This document shows, in pieces, positions 40,587 to 51,884 of a DNA stretch of 54,548 bases. The position numbers were made by a program, and so were the translations under genes. The first letter of the stretch is position 1. Every line of letters starts with the position of its first letter. The notes under the pieces are model-generated. The model had not been told where the DNA came from. It saw only the letters and a list, made by a program, of their open reading frames with translations, and made no database searches. Source of the DNA: Chloroflexota bacterium (GTDB taxonomy: Bacteria > Chloroflexota > Anaerolineae > Aggregatilineales > J027); NCBI GenBank assembly GCA_010092845.1, contig JAADYW010000014.1:1-54548 (forward strand), read 5' to 3'.

Positions 40587-41720
40587 CTAACCGGCAGCAT
40601 GTTTATGGAGTTCTTCTACGAGTTTGCTGAACTGCCCTACAACGGCTGAATCTGGCTGGTACTTCACGATGGGTGTACTGGCTTCAGTGGCTTGATAGGC
40701 GAGCTCAGGTACTGGTGAAATGATCGCAGCGATCGTCTTGCCAAGCAGTCGCTCTGCTTCCTGCCAGGCTGTTTGCACACCCGATTGTACGCGATTGATG
40801 ATGACGACGTGGATATTGGCGTCGCTAATGCCAATCTGCTGCAATTCCTGCAACAGGTTACGCGCGAGCGTTAGGCAGACTCGGTTTGGCTCGGCAGTGA
40901 TGATAACATGGTTGGTTTCGCGGACGACGCGCGCCGTCAAGCGGTTGAGGCCCACCCCTAGATCGACAATCACGTTGCTGTTGAACGCCCGGAGACCCTT
41001 CAGCACAGCCAGGACGGCTTCAGGGGTTGGGTTCAGTTGGCTTTCGCGGGGACGCGAGGAGGATAATAAAACGCGCATGCCCGAGTTGTGCTCGACGATC
41101 TCGCGCTGCAGGACTTGCTCATTGATGTCAGCGGCCGAATGTCCCAGTACATTGGCCAATGTGGTATTACGGCCCAGTCCCAGGCTTAATCCCAACGAGC
41201 CCTGCCCCAAACGTAGATCTAACATTGCTGTGGTATCATGAGATGCGAGAAGCGCCCCGATGTTGGTTGCCAGTGTGGTAGTGCCAACACCGCCCTTAGC
41301 GCCCAGGAAAGCATAGGCAATGCCCAGATTTTCGCCGCGCCGTGCTGCTGCACTCCGTGCCAGCACGGCCTTCACACGCGATGCAAGTTCCGCGGGATGC
41401 GTTGGCTTGGTCAGGTAGTCATCGGCCCCGGCTTCGAATCCGGCAACTTTGTCATCAATAAGCGTTTTGGCGGTGAACATGATAATCGGAATACCGCGTG
41501 TCCGCTGGTTTTCGCGGAGCTGACGACAGACTGTGTACCCATCCATGTCGGGCATCATGACATCCAGGATAATCAAATCCGGCTGCTCAGCCACAGCGCG
41601 CTCAATGGCCTGACTGCCAGAGTTTGCCCCGTTGACCTCGTAGCCTTGCCGCTGGAGCATCAGCCCGATGAGTTTCAGGCTGTCAACGTCGTCATCGACG
41701 ACTAAGATTTTGGTAGCCAT
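40587..41720 (-). CDS. Response regulator fused to MinD/CpaE-type ATPase
   Basis: This 377-residue protein joins a receiver domain (about residues 3-122; Asp53 in LIILDVMMPDMDG, Lys105 in LTKP) to a ParA/MinD-like ATPase (about 135-375) with the deviant Walker A GAKGGVGTTTL (140-150). This is the CpaE/TadZ layout, in which a receiver or pseudo-receiver localises a pilus or secretion machine. Here the receiver keeps its acidic pocket and looks active. The start ATG 41720 has GGAAAAG upstream; the frame to 41762 is less likely. No pilus genes occur in the window, so the target is unknown. The lone kinase encoded at 38398-39654 may be its partner. Confidence 0.9.
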   Translation of the reverse strand: MATKILVVDDDVDSLKLIGLMLQRQGYEVNGANSGSQAIERAVAEQPDLIILDVMMPDMDGYTVCRQLRENQRTRGIPIIMFTAKTLIDDKVAGFEAGADDYLTKPTHPAELASRVKAVLARSAAARRGENLGIAYAFLGAKGGVGTTTLATNIGALLASHDTTAMLDLRLGQGSLGLSLGLGRNTTLANVLGHSAADINEQVLQREIVEHNSGMRVLLSSSRPRESQLNPTPEAVLAVLKGLRAFNSNVIVDLGVGLNRLTARVVRETNHVIITAEPNRVCLTLARNLLQELQQIGISDANIHVVIINRVQSGVQTAWQEAERLLGKTIAAIISPVPELAYQATEASTPIVKYQPDSAVVGQFSKLVEELHKHAAG

Positions 41721-41923
41721 AGAGTACTTTTCCGTATGCAATGCTGACGCTAAACTCCGCACAATCCATCCAGTTTCTGGAGTGTTTTCGACCTATTCCT
41801 GAACAGACTTGCGGTAGCCGGCAGTGTATCACGGATAGATCATGCGTGCAACAGCCATTCGCCCCGCACAGTTTTGGCAGAATTCTATGCAAAAACTTAG
41901 AACCAGCAGGGGGTGTCGGAGGT

Positions 41924-43012: not shown

Positions 43013-44350
43013 ATGCCCGCACAGTTAAAACAACCGCCCGTGAAGCGTATTGCCATGCTGAGCGTCCATACGTCACCGTTAGCCAGGTTAGGGCGCAAGA
43101 AGACCGGCGGTATGAATGTCTACGTTCGCGAAATTGCCCGTGCACTTGGTGCAAACGGAGTTCAGGTCGATGTGTTCACTCGCGTTGCCTCACCTGCGGA
43201 GCGTCATCAGCAGGTTACCGAGATTGCCCCCGATGCGCGGTTGATTTATGTGGCGGCAGGGCCGGCGGCTCCACTCGATCCTTCAGAAATCTACCGCCAT
43301 CTGCCGCAGTTTCGCGATGGCGTGCTGGCTTTTGCCGCCGAGCAGCAACTCGCTTACGAGCTTATCTATAGTCACTATTGGCTGAGCGGCTGGGTTGCAC
43401 TTGCCCTCAAAGCGAGCTGGCAGTTACCTGTCGTGCAGATGTTTCATACCCTGGGCAGAATGAAAGATCGAATTGCTGAGGGCAACTCGTCGCTCGATAC
43501 ACCAACCATTCGCCTCGATGAACGCAATATTCGCGTTGCGGTGGAAACGGAGATTATGAACAAGGTTGATCGGCTGATTGCTGCCACTCCGGCGGAGCAG
43601 ATTCAGATGCTCTGGCTCTACCGGGCTGACCGCCGCAACATTGAGATCGTCCCGCCTGGGGTTACCCTGAACCATTTCCGCCCCATGGATCGCGCTGAGT
43701 CCAGAGCCGCGATTGGCCTGCAGCCAGAGGAGCGGATGCTTCTGTTTGTAGGGCGTATCGAGCCGTTAAAGGGGGTGGAAACTATTTGTCGTGCGCTCAA
43801 TCATCTCTTACCAGAGTGTCCTGACATTCTGGAAAACCTCACCGTACACATTGTTGGAGGGGATCCTGATCGGGAATCACCCGACAATGCTGAGCTACAG
43901 CGCCTACGTGCTTTGTGCCATCAACTTGGTTTGGAGGACATTGTCCGGTTTGTGGGCAGCCGCGAACAATCCGTTTTGCCTTACTATTACAATGCAGCTG
44001 AAGCCTTGATTATGCCCTCAGACTACGAGAGTTTTGGGATGGTAGCCCTGGAGGCGATGGCGTGCGGCACACTGGTCATTGCCTCCCAGGTAGGCGGTCT
44101 GGCGTTCCTGGTGGACGATGACGTGACTGGATTCCATGTGCCGGTGCGGGATCCCGAATCGCTGGCGGAGCGTATTCGGGTGGTGCTCAGGGAGCCGGAG
44201 CGCCGTCAACATATGGCTCAGGCTGCACGCCACGCCGCGGAGAGTTATAGCTGGGATCTCGTTGTTGAACGGCTTTTCGCTGTGTTTAGCGGCGTGTTGC
44301 CCGAGAAACAGCAGCCCCTGGACCTCACGTCGCGGTGCGGCGAAGGCTAG
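43013..44350 (+). CDS. Family 4 glycosyltransferase
   Basis: This 445-residue GT-B glycosyltransferase has the N-terminal acceptor domain with HTSPLARLGRKKTGGMNVYV and a C-terminal donor domain with LLFVGRIEPLKGVETICRAL, MPSDYESFGMVALEAMACG (the EX7E-type donor motif) and ASQVGGLAFLV. The N-terminal loop resembles MshA and sucrose-phosphate synthase-type enzymes. The sugar donor and acceptor cannot be read from sequence. It is co-transcribed with the GNAT-type gene. Its stop overlaps the 3' end of the small convergent gene by four bases. Confidence 0.92.
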   Translation: MPAQLKQPPVKRIAMLSVHTSPLARLGRKKTGGMNVYVREIARALGANGVQVDVFTRVASPAERHQQVTEIAPDARLIYVAAGPAAPLDPSEIYRHLPQFRDGVLAFAAEQQLAYELIYSHYWLSGWVALALKASWQLPVVQMFHTLGRMKDRIAEGNSSLDTPTIRLDERNIRVAVETEIMNKVDRLIAATPAEQIQMLWLYRADRRNIEIVPPGVTLNHFRPMDRAESRAAIGLQPEERMLLFVGRIEPLKGVETICRALNHLLPECPDILENLTVHIVGGDPDRESPDNAELQRLRALCHQLGLEDIVRFVGSREQSVLPYYYNAAEALIMPSDYESFGMVALEAMACGTLVIASQVGGLAFLVDDDVTGFHVPVRDPESLAERIRVVLREPERRQHMAQAARHAAESYSWDLVVERLFAVFSGVLPEKQQPLDLTSRCGEG

Positions 44351-44676
44351 CCGCCATACGAACGACGCGTATTGATAATCGGTGCAGTCATGTATGGCTC
44401 GCTATTCTGGATCGTGAAAGCGTCTTCCTCAGCGATGCTGCGTTGGCCTTTGTAGTGCAAGACGTCGGTGAAGGCGTCATACCGATAGCGCCGGTTGACC
44501 CAGTTATACTCGGGGTGGTGAAATACAACATTGAACTGGACGGCATCCTCATTCGGAATTGGTTTCTCTTCGACCAGCCAGATTGGGGCATATTGTCGTA
44601 GGTGCTCTTGCACCTTGCGATCTCGCATGTCAAGGATCTGTTGCACGCGTTCCTCGGTTGAGGGTTCCTTGCTCAT
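44347..44676 (-). CDS. Small hypothetical protein
   Basis: I do not recognise this 109-residue acidic protein. It has no signal peptide or membrane helix. A charged helical start (STEERVQQILDMRDRKVQEH) is followed by a beta-rich middle (YNWVNRRYRYDAFTDVLHY). The coding pattern looks genuine: ATG start after a short divergent gap, and no good competing frame. Function unknown. Confidence 0.6.
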   Translation of the reverse strand: MSKEPSTEERVQQILDMRDRKVQEHLRQYAPIWLVEEKPIPNEDAVQFNVVFHHPEYNWVNRRYRYDAFTDVLHYKGQRSIAEEDAFTIQNSEPYMTAPIINTRRSYGG

Positions 44677-44786: not shown

Positions 44787-46703
44787 GTGCCGCTTCATCC
44801 GTTTGGTGTGGGCAGTTTTCGACCCATATTTCTGTGGGGCGGGCCGGGTACCTATCGTGTGACCCAGCTGTCCTTTCCGCGCGTACCTGTTGACGAAAAG
44901 ACCTTCCTCTTTTCGCATTCCATTGAAGGCGCTGAACGAGTTGCCGCAATGGGCTTCAATTGGGTTTTCCTTGCCTTCCACTGGGGTTTCCCGCCAGAAT
45001 TGGAGGACTCGCATCGTGAGTCATTTCGTGCGGCGGTGCATCACTTTCATCAGGTTGGAGTGAAAGTCATTGGCACGATCCAGACGTCCAATTGCATCGC
45101 ACAGGGAAGCTATGCTGAAAAGGATTGGTACGCCCAAGACACCTACGGCCACAAGATCTACTGCTTCACCGGCCGCTCCTATACATCCCTGTTTCATCCT
45201 GATTGGCTAGCAGAGATCCGCGAACGTATCCGCGAACTCATCGCGACGGGTGCTGATGGCATTTTCTTCGACAATCCATGGATCGGAGGCGTTGGGCATG
45301 ATGTGGCTGAGATGCCGCTTGGTCCTATCGGGAGCCACGACCCGTACACACAAGCAAGCTATGAGCGCAGCTTTGAGGGCGAACGTGTCCCGGTTGCCTT
45401 GAGCACACGCAAGGCGCGCGATCAGCAGTATCTCGAGTGGCGTGCCAGGAGCGCTGCCCAGCAGCTTGGCAAATGGGTAGAGGTGGCCCGCAATCTCAAG
45501 CCGGATACCGTAGTCATAGCCAATAACTTCGCGCCCGTTGCCCGCAATAGCTTCGCCACCATGGGAATGGACCTTAAGGCATTGGCGGCGAATCAAGATG
45601 TCGTTTTCGTGGATGATTTGGCCTGGCCCCGCCTCCAGGAGGATTCATCTGTGGTTGCCAATGCAATAACCCTAGCTGCTAGCATGTCACAAGTCGATCC
45701 GAAGCCTGTGGTATCCAAAACTGCGATCAAAGGCTATGGTTTTGAGCGCATGTGGACGCCCGATGATATCCGGCGTGCGATAGCCGAATCGGTGGCGGTG
45801 AATGCTCCTCTTGTCGTCCAGGGCAGCGGGATCCGGCACCTTGACGAGATTACGCAATTGCTCCATAGTCGGTATCGACCCCAGCACGACGCCCTTGAGG
45901 GTATGAACCACTGGCTTTCCGAACATGCGGACTGGTTGCAAGCCCGGCAGCCTGCCAGTCCGCTTGCTATCTATTACCCTTTCGATGCGGCGCATTGGAA
46001 TTGGAATCAAGTAACCCCGATCTACTTTGCTGCCTGTGAGACACTGTTGCTCAAAGGCTACCCTCTGCGTGTGATTGGGGCCAACGATAGCTGGGAACAC
46101 GTTAAGATTGTGCTGCTTCCGCCCGGCGAGCTGGGTGATGCCCAGGATCGTCTGGCATCCTTTGTCGCCGGTGGTGGGCGTGTCATTGCCTTGGGGCAGA
46201 AGCGTCCCGGCCTTGCCGATCGCACGGTATGGGACGGATGGCGACCGCTCCGTGCGCGCATTCCCCATTGGCGCTGGTTACGGCGACGCCTGAACCAGGG
46301 AGCGACCATCTCCTGGCGCTTCTATCATCGCTATCATGTTGTGCGTTGGTTGGCCAAGCGGCTCAAGGTCCAAGAAGCGATGGTGCATTCGCCAGCGTAT
46401 ATTGTGCCCCCCCAACCCTTCCAGCAGGTGCTCATCGAGGCGATTGGACGTGATTTCTCGCCTCGTGTTGAGAGTGAGTTTCCCGTTTTGTTGACAATGT
46501 GGCAAGAACCGAACGGTCAGAGCCAATGGCATCTGGTAAACTATGCAGAGGCGCCACAAAAGGTCACACTCCAAGTCGGTGATTTGCGGGCCTTTGAGGT
46601 GTTCACGATGGGGAGCAATGCGCTACCAAGCCGAGTAGTCGGCTCCGCCGTGATGTTGACCCTTGGGCTGGGTAAGATTGTCCGTGCCGTCGAATCAGGA
46701 TAA
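44787..46703 (+). CDS. Putative glycoside hydrolase (TIM barrel, GHL6/10-like)
   Basis: This 638-residue protein has an N-terminal TIM-barrel region (about residues 35-340) with GFNWVFLAFHWGFPPE, VKVIGTIQTSN and TGADGIFFDNPWIGG, the last Asp being a likely catalytic residue by comparison with hypothetical glycosyl hydrolase families. A second domain (about 385-480) with VKIVLLPPGELGDAQDRL resembles the amidotransferase-like domain that follows such barrels. A basic linker and a small beta domain end the protein. No signal peptide is seen at the GTG 44787 start, which has GGAAGAG upstream, so it is cytosolic or non-classically placed. Substrate unknown. It groups with the glycosyltransferase upstream and the orphan downstream. 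Confidence 0.72.
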   Translation: MPLHPFGVGSFRPIFLWGGPGTYRVTQLSFPRVPVDEKTFLFSHSIEGAERVAAMGFNWVFLAFHWGFPPELEDSHRESFRAAVHHFHQVGVKVIGTIQTSNCIAQGSYAEKDWYAQDTYGHKIYCFTGRSYTSLFHPDWLAEIRERIRELIATGADGIFFDNPWIGGVGHDVAEMPLGPIGSHDPYTQASYERSFEGERVPVALSTRKARDQQYLEWRARSAAQQLGKWVEVARNLKPDTVVIANNFAPVARNSFATMGMDLKALAANQDVVFVDDLAWPRLQEDSSVVANAITLAASMSQVDPKPVVSKTAIKGYGFERMWTPDDIRRAIAESVAVNAPLVVQGSGIRHLDEITQLLHSRYRPQHDALEGMNHWLSEHADWLQARQPASPLAIYYPFDAAHWNWNQVTPIYFAACETLLLKGYPLRVIGANDSWEHVKIVLLPPGELGDAQDRLASFVAGGGRVIALGQKRPGLADRTVWDGWRPLRARIPHWRWLRRRLNQGATISWRFYHRYHVVRWLAKRLKVQEAMVHSPAYIVPPQPFQQVLIEAIGRDFSPRVESEFPVLLTMWQEPNGQSQWHLVNYAEAPQKVTLQVGDLRAFEVFTMGSNALPSRVVGSAVMLTLGLGKIVRAVESG

Positions 46704-46738
46704 TCTCCTCTTTATAAATTGAGAAGTCAGGGGCACTC

Positions 46739-49132
46739 TTGGATAACAAGATCGAGACGATCGAGGAAGCACGACGCCGAACTGCTGCCAGTCTGGGACC
46801 ATTGTTTCAGTCAACTAACGAGCTCACTCATCTGTCGCTGAAAGATATAACGGAGCTTGCCGATGAGGTAGCACGCGTCTTGCCAGCGGGAAATGTCGTC
46901 AAGATGGTCTTCTCGCAGCTTCGGTCGATCAAAGGGCGCCGTATCCCCGCCGATGAATCACGGCGGCTGCTGGGTTTATTGCACCAGGGCATTGCGACGT
47001 TATTGGATCGTGCCACCTACATGGCCTTCTACACGACCCCAGCGCTGCTGATTTCCGGATACCAGTTGTTGCTTCAGGCGGCTGGCAAGGACCCGCAAGC
47101 TGCCTTCACAGATGGAACCTGGCAATTCTACCTTGAATTTGGCCTGCGCGCTGATACGGCACGCCATGCGTGTGAAACGACTGGTTTCCATCAACAGATC
47201 GCCCGCGCTGGTTGGCAGCTCTCAGAAATGGACCAATTGGCTGCCTGGATTATGGCGGCGAGTTGGTTAGTCGCCAGTTATCCTAGCCTGCTGGCCCACG
47301 AATGGTACGAGCACATGCAGCTCAAGCGTCTGGGGGACCGCCTTGGCGATTCTCGCATGTTGAAGCAGTGGGTGAAGCAGCGTCCCTACCACGTGCCTGG
47401 GCACCGTTCTGATGGCTATATCCGTTATCGCCGTGAGGTATTTGCCACTTTCGTCTATGATGTATTGTCGGGCGATTTGCCCGCCCACGAGGTTGACGAG
47501 ACCTTGAACTTCTGGCATCAAGAGGTGACGCTGGATAATGCGGCCCGGGCCGCGTATCAGACCCAGATGTCGCTTCAAATGGCGCTGACGCCTGAACCGT
47601 ACTTCGACCGGCGTGACCCCATCCCCCTCGAAGCCTGCACCATCGCTGTAGCCTGGAATGGAGAGTATTACCTTGTCCCTATCTTCCACAATGGGGCACG
47701 TCTCAATCAGCAAACGGTGCGTGCCATGGCCTCGACGATCCTGGCGAATGGGCCAGCCCGTGTGCCGACGCCAGTCGATACGCTTCTGGTGCATGTGCCG
47801 CGTTCCCAGCAGGCCACTGTCCGCAACTCGTTGCCCGCGGGAATGCTGGAGACGCTACGTACTGCACCGATTATCATCAATTGGAATACTGCGGATGCCG
47901 CATTACCCCTTGCCGAAATCCGGCGTGGGCGCCGTGGCATCGGTGATCATGCTTTGACCCTGTTCCGCACCGACCAGAGCATAGTTTTCGATCAGTCGCA
48001 TATTTTCTTCGACGCCATTTGGGGTATGGCTATCGCTGAAATCCTGACGGGGCAAGCGATCCGGCATGCAGGTGAAATGAAGGATCTGGCGCCGATTCGC
48101 GATTCACATGTTCGCGCCCGCCCGGTGAATATGGCGCTGCCATCGCCAGTGATCGAGAAAATTCGGCGGCAGACTGAGCCCACCATCGAGGTCGCGGCCG
48201 AGACAGAAACACGCATCCTCGAGGAGATCAATTACGTAAGGCGCCTGCTGAAACGCCGGAACTCCGAGCTCGATCTCACCTTCAACGATTTGCTCGTATT
48301 GTATCGGTCAATGCATAATCAGCTTTATCGGCCAGCGAAATCCCTCATGCAATCGCTAAAGATGCTGGCCATGGCCGGCCGGCGCCAGGAAGCGGTTGTC
48401 GACAATGTGCGGGTGATGCTGGACAATCTGCTACGGGAAAGCCCGGCATTCCTGATTCCTATTGACGCCACTACGATCAATCCCCGCGCCCGGATATTCC
48501 CTGTGACGTTTTCCCCTCAACCTCCCTGGACGACGATCGCGCCCCAACACGAGCAAACCTGGGCCCGCCTTGATCTCTATCGAGAGCAACCTACGGATGC
48601 CAACTGGAAAGCCTTCAGTGAGGCCCGGAGCTACTATCTCGGGATGCTTCGGTTGTTTGGTGCTCTGATGCAGCGCTACAAGGATCTCGCTCTCGAAGGC
48701 AAGAGCATCAGCACAATTTCGCTCGAGTTTCTGGGCAGTGTGCCCCGGCGCTTGCAGCCATTGCTGCGTGACCTGCCTGATCATATAGATTTGCTGAACG
48801 ATATGCTGAAGGGCACTGAGGTCTTCAGCAATGTGGGCCACGTAGCGTCGACCTCTTCTCTCAAACGTTTCATCACGGCCAAGGACGATAATCGGAAGAA
48901 GGAACTCTGTTGGGGGGTTATGACCCGCGCAGATGGTACAACCGCGATCTCCTTGCGGGATTTCAGGCCACAAGTGACAGCCCTGGTTGACATCAACGCA
49001 TCCGATATCGCCCTGATGATTACCCGCGATTTCCTGGAAAGTTATGCCTATGGCCTACGCCAGTATGTTCTTGAGCTTACCGAAATGGCCGGTATGCGTA
49101 AACAGCGAGGTGGCAACCGTAATGAGCTTTGA
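46739..49132 (+). CDS. 797-residue orphan protein
   Basis: I cannot assign this long cytosolic protein. It has no signal peptide and no membrane helix. The N-terminal 300 residues are mostly helical. A mixed region (about 295-460) holds PIPLEACTIAVAWNGEYYLVP-like strands and SIVFDQSHIFFDAIWG, which faintly recalls acyltransferase folds with a His/Asp dyad; this is weak. Residues about 480-560 form a charged helical stretch, and the last 200 residues are again helical. The start is TTG 46739 with CAGGGG five bases upstream. It lies 35 bases after the glycoside-hydrolase-like gene, and its end overlaps the purB start by 11 bases, so it is translated within the same unit. Confidence 0.7.
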   Translation: MDNKIETIEEARRRTAASLGPLFQSTNELTHLSLKDITELADEVARVLPAGNVVKMVFSQLRSIKGRRIPADESRRLLGLLHQGIATLLDRATYMAFYTTPALLISGYQLLLQAAGKDPQAAFTDGTWQFYLEFGLRADTARHACETTGFHQQIARAGWQLSEMDQLAAWIMAASWLVASYPSLLAHEWYEHMQLKRLGDRLGDSRMLKQWVKQRPYHVPGHRSDGYIRYRREVFATFVYDVLSGDLPAHEVDETLNFWHQEVTLDNAARAAYQTQMSLQMALTPEPYFDRRDPIPLEACTIAVAWNGEYYLVPIFHNGARLNQQTVRAMASTILANGPARVPTPVDTLLVHVPRSQQATVRNSLPAGMLETLRTAPIIINWNTADAALPLAEIRRGRRGIGDHALTLFRTDQSIVFDQSHIFFDAIWGMAIAEILTGQAIRHAGEMKDLAPIRDSHVRARPVNMALPSPVIEKIRRQTEPTIEVAAETETRILEEINYVRRLLKRRNSELDLTFNDLLVLYRSMHNQLYRPAKSLMQSLKMLAMAGRRQEAVVDNVRVMLDNLLRESPAFLIPIDATTINPRARIFPVTFSPQPPWTTIAPQHEQTWARLDLYREQPTDANWKAFSEARSYYLGMLRLFGALMQRYKDLALEGKSISTISLEFLGSVPRRLQPLLRDLPDHIDLLNDMLKGTEVFSNVGHVASTSSLKRFITAKDDNRKKELCWGVMTRADGTTAISLRDFRPQVTALVDINASDIALMITRDFLESYAYGLRQYVLELTEMAGMRKQRGGNRNEL

Positions 49133-50522
49133 CTTCGACACCTATCTTTCCACTTTCACCTGGCGCTATGGCTCCACCGAGATGCGCGAGATATGGAGTG
49201 AGACCTATAAGCGAAAGCTTTGGCGGCGTTTGTGGGTGGCCCTGGCCCGCGCCCAGCAAAGGGCCGGGCTGGTGAGGCAAGCTCAAGTCGATGAACTTGA
49301 AGCACATAAGGGCGAAATCGACGTCGCAGCCGCCCACGCCATCGAAGCGCAGATCCATCACGACTTGATGGCTGAGGTACGCGTGTTCGCGGAGCAATGC
49401 CCAAATGCGGGTGGCATTATTCACCTGGGTGCAACCAGTATGGATATCGAGGACAACGCCGACGCCATGCGCTTGCGAGATGCCCTCGACTATGTTATCG
49501 CTGGGCTACGTGGTTTGCTGGCCATTTTCTGCGACCAGATTGAACAACATGCCAATCTGGCATGTATGGGCCATACCCATATCCAACCGGCTGAACCAAC
49601 AACGGTCGGTTTCCGCCTGGCACAGTACGCGCAGGACCTGCACACCGATCTGCTGATGTTGCACCATATTCGCGCGGGGATCCGTGGCAAGGGTTTCCGC
49701 GGAGCTGTGGGCACTGCTGCCTCCTATCACGAGCTGCTCAGCGGCACAGGTCTCACTCCGCAGATGATGGAACAGCAGATCATGGCGGAAATCGGTCTTG
49801 AGGCTTTTGATGTAACCACGCAGACCTATCCGCGCAAGCAGGATTGGCATGTGTTGAACGCGCTAGCCGGATTGGCAGGTAGTATCTATAAGTTCTCGCT
49901 GGACTTGCGTATCCTGCAGGCGCCGCCTTACGGAGAATGGGCGGAACCCTTTGGTAAGAAGCAGGTCGGCTCTTCAGCAATGCCCTTCAAGCGCAATCCG
50001 ATTCGCGCTGAGCGCTTGAGTAGCCTGGGACGGCTGGCGATTGCATGGCCACATGTGGCATGGGACAATGCTGCCCACTCAATGCTTGAACGGACGTTGG
50101 ATGACTCGGCCAATCGCCGCACGATATTGCCGCAAAGCTTTCTCCTCGTGGATGAGATGTTGCGTCTGGCAACACGTATTGTCAAGGATTTGCGCCTGGA
50201 TACAGATGCAATTGGTCACAATCTTGAACGCTATGGTATCTTTAGTGCGGTTGAACGGGTCCTGATGGCTCTCGGGCGAGCGGGAGCAGATCGCCAAGCC
50301 ATGCACGAAATCCTGCGAGAGCACTCGATGGCGGCCTGGGAGGCGGTCTCGACGGGGCAGCCTAATCCCCTGGTACAGCGCCTATCGAGTGATGATCGGC
50401 TGCTGGCTTATCTCTCAGGCGCTGAGATTGTGTCCCTTTTGGACGCAAGTGAATATACAGGCGACGCTGCTCATCGCGCGCGCCAGTTGGTTGAACTTAT
50501 ACGCACAACACTACAGGTTTGA
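49122..50522 (+). CDS. purB: Adenylosuccinate lyase
   Basis: PurB cleaves adenylosuccinate to AMP and also SAICAR to AICAR in purine synthesis, releasing fumarate. The 466-residue protein shows GATSMDIEDNA, MGHTHIQPAEPTT with the catalytic His, and the lyase signature GSSAMPFKRNP with the catalytic Ser. The start ATG 49122 overlaps the orphan's stop and has AGGTGG upstream; the frame open to 49044 is a read-back. AICAR made here is the substrate of PurH, encoded about 1.4 kb downstream. Confidence 0.92.
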   Translation: MSFDFDTYLSTFTWRYGSTEMREIWSETYKRKLWRRLWVALARAQQRAGLVRQAQVDELEAHKGEIDVAAAHAIEAQIHHDLMAEVRVFAEQCPNAGGIIHLGATSMDIEDNADAMRLRDALDYVIAGLRGLLAIFCDQIEQHANLACMGHTHIQPAEPTTVGFRLAQYAQDLHTDLLMLHHIRAGIRGKGFRGAVGTAASYHELLSGTGLTPQMMEQQIMAEIGLEAFDVTTQTYPRKQDWHVLNALAGLAGSIYKFSLDLRILQAPPYGEWAEPFGKKQVGSSAMPFKRNPIRAERLSSLGRLAIAWPHVAWDNAAHSMLERTLDDSANRRTILPQSFLLVDEMLRLATRIVKDLRLDTDAIGHNLERYGIFSAVERVLMALGRAGADRQAMHEILREHSMAAWEAVSTGQPNPLVQRLSSDDRLLAYLSGAEIVSLLDASEYTGDAAHRARQLVELIRTTLQV

Positions 50523-50546
50523 TCGTTGGTTTATGGAGGAAACAAG

Positions 50547-51884
50547 ATGCTGAAGTTACATCATTTTGCTGTGATCCTATCGGTCGTGGGCCTTATGCTC
50601 CTGCTGCCGGTTATTGCGCAGGGCCAGGGCGGGGGCGAGGACGATCCAGTTGCACCACCTGATGATGTACGGCTGCCCCTGGTAGAACTTGTCTACACTG
50701 CCGATTTCACCGATGAAGCCGCTTGGCCTTCCGGTCAGACATCGGATGGATCGATGGGTTTCAATCTCACGCCAGAAGGCTACTCGATTGCCAGCCTGGA
50801 TCCAGAGGGCGGGATTGGCGTCGCTAATCCTATCGATCTCGTTATTGATGATTTCTACGCGGAGATTGCCTTCACGGTCGATACCTGCAATAGCCCGGAT
50901 AGCGCGTTTCTCTTCTTCACCCGCTTTGGGTCCAGCACGCTAGACCCCGATGCCCCGGCTTCCTATGTGTTCGTAATCCAGTGTAGTGGTGACTACCGGT
51001 CGCGGGGACTTGATGCTGGAGAAATCCTGCCGGTAACGGTCAGCGGCCAGACAATGGCGCTGGAAGAAGGCCAGGAAGTTGTCATGGGCGTGTTGTTTGT
51101 TGGGGATCAAGTGGTGTGGTTCTTGAATGGGGAAGAGCTCGAAAGCTTCGCCATTGGCGATGCCGCATTGCCCGAGGGTTCCTTGACTGCCGGCGCACAG
51201 CTTGGTTTTGGCTACACCGTGACCGATTGGCGTGTTTGGAGCCTTAAGTCAACGGGATCGGCTGCCGATACTGCTTCGCAACCGACGCAATCTCCCCCTA
51301 GCGATGGCGATCCCCTCAACCAGCAAGGACCAGGTGACATTGTCTACCAGCCGGACTTCAATCCGCCAACCAGCCTTGATTACGGCTTGCATAATCCGGT
51401 TGCAGCTTATATTTCCGGAGACAACCTGACGCTCTATAACACTGAGCCGCTGGCCGTCTGGCCATTAAGGGGCCTCGATGCTAGCGAATATTACCTCGAG
51501 GTCCCCATCGCAGTCCGCGACTGTGAGGATACATCGTCGGTTGGTTTTGCTTTCAACGCGGCTGATGATTACAGTAGCTATTTCGCTTACCAGGTGCAAT
51601 GCGACGGCCAATATCGTGTAATCCGCGTTGAAGATGGTACCGTCGTCGAGGAATTGGCCTCTGGGGAAACTGGTATGGACCTGCGGGACTTTTCGCGAGG
51701 CCTGGTGCTGGGACTCTATCTGCAGGGGGACACTGCCTGGCTGTATCTGGACAACCAGCTTCAGGGATCGTTTACCGACTCGCGGCTAGCTGGTGGAGAG
51801 GCGGGTCTTTTGCTGGCCTCTGGCGAGAACAGTCGACGGATGGACGTTCTGGTCTTTAATATTGCCGCCTTTGACATTCGGTAG
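50547..51884 (+). CDS. Secreted two-repeat beta-domain protein
   Basis: This 445-residue exported protein has a signal peptide (about residues 1-26, ending VIAQG) and two homologous domains of about 190 residues (about 48-235 and 260-445). Both begin with a (L/I)VY-x-(A/P)DF strand and contain a cysteine pair around DTCNSPDSAFLFF and RDCEDTSSVGFAF, later FVIQCSGDYR and YQVQCDGQYR, and a final strand with a VWFLNG or AWLYLDN motif. The fold is probably a jelly-roll like LamG. An acidic and Pro-rich linker follows the signal peptide. GGAGGA precedes ATG 50547. The role is unknown; a surface-binding function is likely. Confidence 0.75.
   Translation: MLKLHHFAVILSVVGLMLLLPVIAQGQGGGEDDPVAPPDDVRLPLVELVYTADFTDEAAWPSGQTSDGSMGFNLTPEGYSIASLDPEGGIGVANPIDLVIDDFYAEIAFTVDTCNSPDSAFLFFTRFGSSTLDPDAPASYVFVIQCSGDYRSRGLDAGEILPVTVSGQTMALEEGQEVVMGVLFVGDQVVWFLNGEELESFAIGDAALPEGSLTAGAQLGFGYTVTDWRVWSLKSTGSAADTASQPTQSPPSDGDPLNQQGPGDIVYQPDFNPPTSLDYGLHNPVAAYISGDNLTLYNTEPLAVWPLRGLDASEYYLEVPIAVRDCEDTSSVGFAFNAADDYSSYFAYQVQCDGQYRVIRVEDGTVVEELASGETGMDLRDFSRGLVLGLYLQGDTAWLYLDNQLQGSFTDSRLAGGEAGLLLASGENSRRMDVLVFNIAAFDIR

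Follow-up and report, generated by a model that had tools for sequence, protein, structure and literature searches.

The 797-residue protein, its family and its neighbourhood

The window, by which we mean the whole 54,548-nt stretch of Chloroflexota DNA analysed here, carries on its forward strand, at 46739-49132, an open reading frame that starts with TTG, ends with TGA at 49130-49132 and encodes 797 amino acids. A Shine-Dalgarno-like AGGGG (46729-46733, +), read from the sequence, stands 5 nt before the TTG, and the gene overlaps purB by 11 nt, the ATG at 49122 opening a reading that begins MSFDF and is the likely purB start. The length, the TTG start and the purB overlap given in the initial annotation thus return at exactly these coordinates. 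The longest opposite-strand reading frame listed inside the gene has 180 aa; a chance or shadow frame was considered for the gene itself and is ruled out by the many stops in the one reverse-strand frame translated across it, by its homologues and by its invariant residues.

The protein belongs to a conserved Chloroflexota family. Matches at E ≤ 1e-3 were found in 26 of 61 genomes, and a profile of 20 aligned rows (A1) recovered the family in 12 of the 151 genomes of a phylum-wide draw, the window's own genome being included in both counts. A search of genome contigs gave 160 stretches encoding a relative, the best 80 of which were kept (L031-L110); these are titled as Chloroflexi or Anaerolineae-type, L067 as Brevefilum. 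Three genomes (G006, G007 and G009) hold two relatives each, one 53-54% and the other 39-40% identical to the window protein. None of 23 pattern matches in viral contigs was a relative, plasmids gave no match, and those portions of open-licence papers that were available held nothing on such a protein in Chloroflexota. For comparison of residues we used an alignment of 71 rows (A2), consisting of the window protein and 70 proteins from the 80 loci, with near-copies (>90%) and L050, an open frame without a start codon, left out. A larger set of 95 rows, 94 of them different, adds the near-copies and 15 rows from further genomes to A2 and holds two places twice (L137 is L044, and L139 is L075).

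Upstream, 35 nt before the gene, lies a glycosidase-like gene for 638 aa (44787-46703, +), whose match to PF14871 (GHL6) stays below the cut-off at E 0.052 and whose model, built from five sequences, is poor (pLDDT 43.5). Downstream, purB (49122-50522, +; adenylosuccinate lyase, TIGR00928 over cut-off) is followed by a gene at 50526-51884 (+) for a 452-aa protein with a hydrophobic stretch near its N-terminus and no Pfam match, which separates purB from purH. A 109-aa protein without a Pfam match is encoded at 44347-44676 (−), and in seven of eight related loci it lies near a GT4-like gene. Close relatives share much of an order made up of GNAT-like, GT4, 109-aa, glycosidase-like, 797-aa, purB and 452-aa genes. 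Within the flanks of the 80 loci, the GNAT-like gene appears in nine, the GT4 and 109-aa genes in eight each, and the glycosidase-like, purB and 452-aa genes in five each; the glycosidase-like gene is each time just upstream of the acyltransferase-like gene, and purB is directly downstream in four. Elsewhere in the window, a reverse-strand gene (40587-41762) joins a response-regulator receiver domain to a ParA/MinD-like ATPase domain.

Predicted fold and invariant residues

By sequence, the 797-residue protein resembles no recognised family, in line with its first description: Pfam and NCBIfam return no family even at E 10, a phmmer search of PDB sequences gives one chance-level match only (E 0.82), and the A1 profile finds no match in the PDB. 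The fold speaks more clearly. An AlphaFold2 model built on A2 reaches a mean pLDDT of 89.4 and a pTM of 0.91, and in a Foldseek search of the PDB each of the 28 best matches is a choline/carnitine acyltransferase (lowest E 1.2e-12), with moderate TM-scores of 0.39-0.48 by query and 0.50-0.63 by target and large rmsd values. VIA-align places rat CPT2 (2h4t) first, with Z 22.6 and an rmsd of 4.6 over 507 aligned residues, followed by ChAT (Z 20.0) and CrAT (Z 19.4) in a group that also includes CROT and whose lowest Z is 18.2. In the rows shown, the next group, made up of AzeD, condensation and epimerisation domains and wax-ester synthase, reaches at most Z 13.1 over about 330 residues. Of the two folds that the initial annotation had named for comparison, that of the carnitine acyltransferases therefore matches clearly and that of the condensation domains more weakly. 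The known fold covers most of the modelled protein (residues about 118-786), the first ~117 residues matching in some alignments only, and identity to the solved enzymes in the fold alignments is 9-13%. From the model, the protein looks like a remote and atypical relative of the carnitine/choline acyltransferases, nearly 200 residues longer than the solved PF00755 enzymes and, unlike them, bacterial. The earlier suggestion of a new family lacking clear domains survives in its first half only, as most of the chain takes a known fold.

The sequence signal to CPT2 and CrAT is weak and points the same way as the fold. Searching the PDB with the A2 profile gives CPT2 as the best match (E 0.15) and CrAT at E 0.28, values similar to that of an unrelated sigma-factor match (0.19), such matches falling at residues 8-65. 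When the family is aligned with CrAT and CPT2 by hhalign (P 5.7e-5, probability 65.8), residues 300-378 (47636-47872, +), the stretch that aligns by profile with these enzymes in hmmsearch as well, are the only reliable part. The one full-length alignment obtained, at a low threshold and unreliable, leaves H421 out of register with the catalytic His, and the global mode yields a meaningless 13-column result. PF00755 appears in one of the 20 A1 members at E 0.019, in a Pfam scan in which unrelated families reach E 0.0039-0.014, and its curated cut-off is reached neither by the window protein nor by the 20 members. The window's own genome contains no PF00755 match, and none over the cut-off was found in the 151 Chloroflexota genomes (12 sub-threshold), which by their handles are the same genomes as in the A1 profile search above; 14 control genomes also gave none, so that this count stands without a positive control.

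What remains constant across the family is a set of mostly polar residues: D418, H421, D425, T514, D517, R523, R585, S697, N698, D716, D717, K721, W725, R740, D741 and R743 are identical in 95 of 95 rows. The first three belong to FDQSHIFFDA (47987-48016, +), in which the proposed catalytic H421 is encoded at 47999-48001 and D425 at 48011-48013. The pattern Hx3[DE][GA], an active-site motif of the PF00755 enzymes, is found here in every row, and the faint His/Asp acyltransferase hint that had been read from SHIFFDAIWG thus gains both from conservation and from the fold. H421 would be the counterpart of the catalytic His, judging by the motif and by the order of elements in the fold. Towards the N-terminus, the motif WQFYLEFGLRADTARHACET (residues 128-147; 47120-47179, +), with W128, R137, D139 and E146 in 95 of 95 rows, resembles by eye WFDMYLTARDS of CPT2 and WLKTAYLQYRQP of CrAT; written as a pattern, this W..Y..R motif picks up CrAT and 89 of 95 rows but misses CPT2. 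A pattern designed for R355 matches 69 of 95 rows and, in the window protein, falls at another site, which makes it uninformative.

Other hallmarks of the carnitine acyltransferases are missing. GRT[DE]T and FDRHL, which we take to line the carnitine site, and SPDA, presumably by the CoA site, each occur in none of the 95 rows and are all present in CrAT (1nm8) and CPT2 (2deb); two PROSITE-type signatures likewise match both enzymes and no row. Where the carnitine acyltransferases have SPDA, a position equated by eye, the family has T-x-[NS]-D in 95 of 95 rows, read as TFNDLL in the window protein (residues 514-519; 48278-48295, +). SNVG (residues 697-700; 48827-48838, +) would, from the strand order in the model, correspond to the STS motif, and SN at 697-698, present in every row, may replace it; an STS string occurs somewhere in 30 of 95 rows, at 704 in the window protein. 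Because no match exceeds the Pfam cut-off and none of the 95 rows has the carnitine- and CoA-site motifs of CrAT and CPT2, the protein is best described as belonging to a new family within the choline/carnitine-acyltransferase fold that is no member of PF00755 and whose chemistry is probably similar.

A clade of neighbouring Ser/Thr kinases

What lies beside the relatives of this gene? In the flanks of the best 80 of the 160 loci, the neighbour cluster seen most often, in 57 loci, is that of a Ser/Thr protein kinase. Counted by position, a kinase gene is directly beside the gene in 57 of these 80 loci, which are not a random draw, near it in one and not adjacent in 22; among the latter, L091 and L095 are close to a contig end and 14 fall in the window's own sub-clade. 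ORF clustering places a kinase within 300 nt in 54 loci downstream and in two upstream (L068 and L080), with a 4-nt overlap of gene and kinase in 18 of the 54 when longest-ORF starts are used; the kinase of L099 is 970 nt away, and that downstream of L088 was found by direct search. In 20 further stretches, a kinase match lies beside the gene in L137-L145 and L156, about 1.9 kb upstream in L146, and not beside it in L147-L155. Three of these ten linked stretches duplicate L044, L075 and L076, leaving seven new ones (L138 and L140-L145), of which L141-L143 belong to one genus and some to other classes. For nine of the ten, the kinase ORF begins at most 220 nt ahead of the end of the gene and at most 410 nt past it, and in L138 the similarity match to a kinase lies ~270 nt after it. 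Since six genomes that were counted contain 15-43 kinase matches each, adjacency by chance should be rare, which is an estimate rather than a computed null. Kinase genes beside most of the relatives examined, a feature that sets the family apart from the PF00755 enzymes, hint at an enzyme-kinase pair.

The partner kinases resemble bacterial Hanks-type Ser/Thr kinases: PF00069 was found in seven of seven clustered kinases scanned, and 63 of the 64 ORFs in the cluster contain HRDxKxxN, DFG and VAIK-type motifs. A crude hydrophobicity scan indicates a membrane segment in many of them, not all. They differ from other Hanks-type kinases in forming a distinct clade tied to the acyltransferase-like gene and in their varied extra domains. 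Among the linked kinases, L061:10406-13525 has two kinase domains and an FGE-sulfatase domain and L106:10604-12619 carries PD40 repeats; in G170, tandem kinase domains follow the acyltransferase-like gene.

For a kinase tree, 56 linked and 40 unlinked domains were picked among the matches listed, the unlinked ones being 20 of the 30 in the window's genome, 10 of the 15 in G172 and 10 of the 37 in G170. The 56 linked domains, together with two from the window's genome (G000:C186:13042-13797 and G000:C154:8207-8986), are set apart from the other 38 domains by a branch with support 99. The label linked or unlinked changes three times on this tree, compared with 30.8 times when shuffled, and mean identity is 0.58 among linked kinases versus 0.38 between linked and unlinked ones. 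Both this tree and that of the acyltransferase-like proteins, the target tree, are quick trees without bootstrap, and in the latter two long branches (L144 and L145) meet. Over 55 loci, target and kinase distances correlate with r 0.84, a value reached in 0 of 999 permutations; among the 1022 pairs whose target divergence exceeds 0.45, r is 0.65. Both values are uncorrected for the descent of the organisms. Two kinases of the partner clade stand away from the 797-aa gene in the window's genome (L197:6947-9445 and L198:5365-7038), and the C-terminal domain of the former looks repeated by eye. In their C-terminal parts, both orphan kinases show weak similarity to the corresponding parts of some linked kinases (22-30% identity, E 1e-4 to 3e-8).

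In the target tree, 15 rows without an adjacent kinase form a set (support 98) that includes the window protein; kinase-linked rows are found on both sides of the midpoint root. With 65 rows labelled as linked, 27 as not and three unlabelled (L091, L095 and L099), the kinase label changes eight times, compared with 23.4 times when shuffled. Because linked rows stand on both sides of the root and the label changes so rarely, loss of the kinase neighbour in the window's lineage would be the simpler story if this root holds; the neighbour may have been lost or never have been there. Among the relatives examined, the two-gene unit with a kinase of this one clade is the usual state and probably the ancestral one.

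Proposed function and alternatives

How could such a protein work? The explanation we favour, and hold to be reasonably probable, is a soluble acyltransferase with a putative non-carnitine acceptor, from a family that is usually, and probably ancestrally, paired with a kinase. As a CoA-dependent enzyme of the choline/carnitine-acyltransferase fold, it would use His421 as the general base for an acceptor with a hydroxyl or amine group, and this acceptor would then attack the thioester of an acyl-CoA lodged in the central tunnel. Asp425 would have a structural role in ordering the loop, and Ser697/Asn698 would act at the oxyanion in place of the STS motif of the carnitine acyltransferases. To judge from the sequences, the acceptor is probably not carnitine, because the motifs of the carnitine site are missing; the gene setting weakly suggests an envelope or glycoconjugate acceptor. 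The linked kinase would phosphorylate the acyltransferase-like protein or be informed by it, and acyltransferase activity is probably controlled by the kinase or feeds into it, since a two-gene unit with one kinase clade is the usual state of the family. We can further imagine, with clearly less conviction, a module found across Chloroflexota in which an enzyme of the carnitine-acyltransferase fold with a new acceptor is co-inherited with a dedicated Ser/Thr kinase, phosphorylation gating acyl transfer or the acylated product gating the kinase.

The pairing with one kinase clade in most of the loci examined would also suit a regulatory protein that hardly turns over substrate, if at all, and on binding acyl-CoA or an acylated ligand passes a signal to the kinase. 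We consider this unlikely: an active enzyme would be expected to show the strict conservation seen at H421, D425, S697, N698 and many further polar positions, which do not vary in any of the 95 rows, and the 15 rows of the window's sub-clade retain these residues with no kinase gene next door. Still less probable is a true carnitine or choline acyltransferase of bacteria whose sequence has drifted past the reach of Pfam: CPT2, ChAT, CrAT and CROT are indeed the best fold matches, and H-x3-D is conserved, but GRT[DE]T, FDRHL, SPDA and both signatures are lacking in all 95 rows, and PF00755 exceeds its cut-off in none of the 151 genomes (nor in the 14 controls).

NRPS condensation domains and wax-ester synthases carry the motif HHxxxDG, and BAHD acyltransferases HxxxD together with DFGWG, which is found in none of the 95 rows. 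That the protein works like a condensation domain or wax-ester synthase (WS/DGAT), on a carrier-protein-bound or long-chain substrate and with a likeness to the carnitine acyltransferases in overall build only, is very improbable: these proteins, of what may be the same broader acyltransferase fold, form the second fold group (Z 12-13), share H-x3-D and have motifs that T-x-N-D and SNVG may resemble, but their Z is lower by 5 to 9.5 than that of the carnitine group and covers ~330 rather than 500 residues, HHx3DG occurs in one of 95 rows, the Pfam matches of 20 members at E 1 include no condensation or wax-ester synthase family, the family's proteins stand alone at ~800 aa, and a carrier protein is absent from the ten annotated window genes.

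Finally, we would like to place the favoured reading, a kinase-paired acyltransferase with an acceptor other than carnitine, in a broader context. To our knowledge, work on choline/carnitine acyltransferases has been confined almost entirely to eukaryotes. A bacterial branch that has diverged from them and lacks the motifs of the carnitine site would help to reveal what this fold did before carnitine, or does in addition to it. The stable association with a single clade of Ser/Thr kinases offers a clean genetic handle on a bacterial kinase, for which the neighbouring acyltransferase-like gene is the first candidate substrate or regulator.
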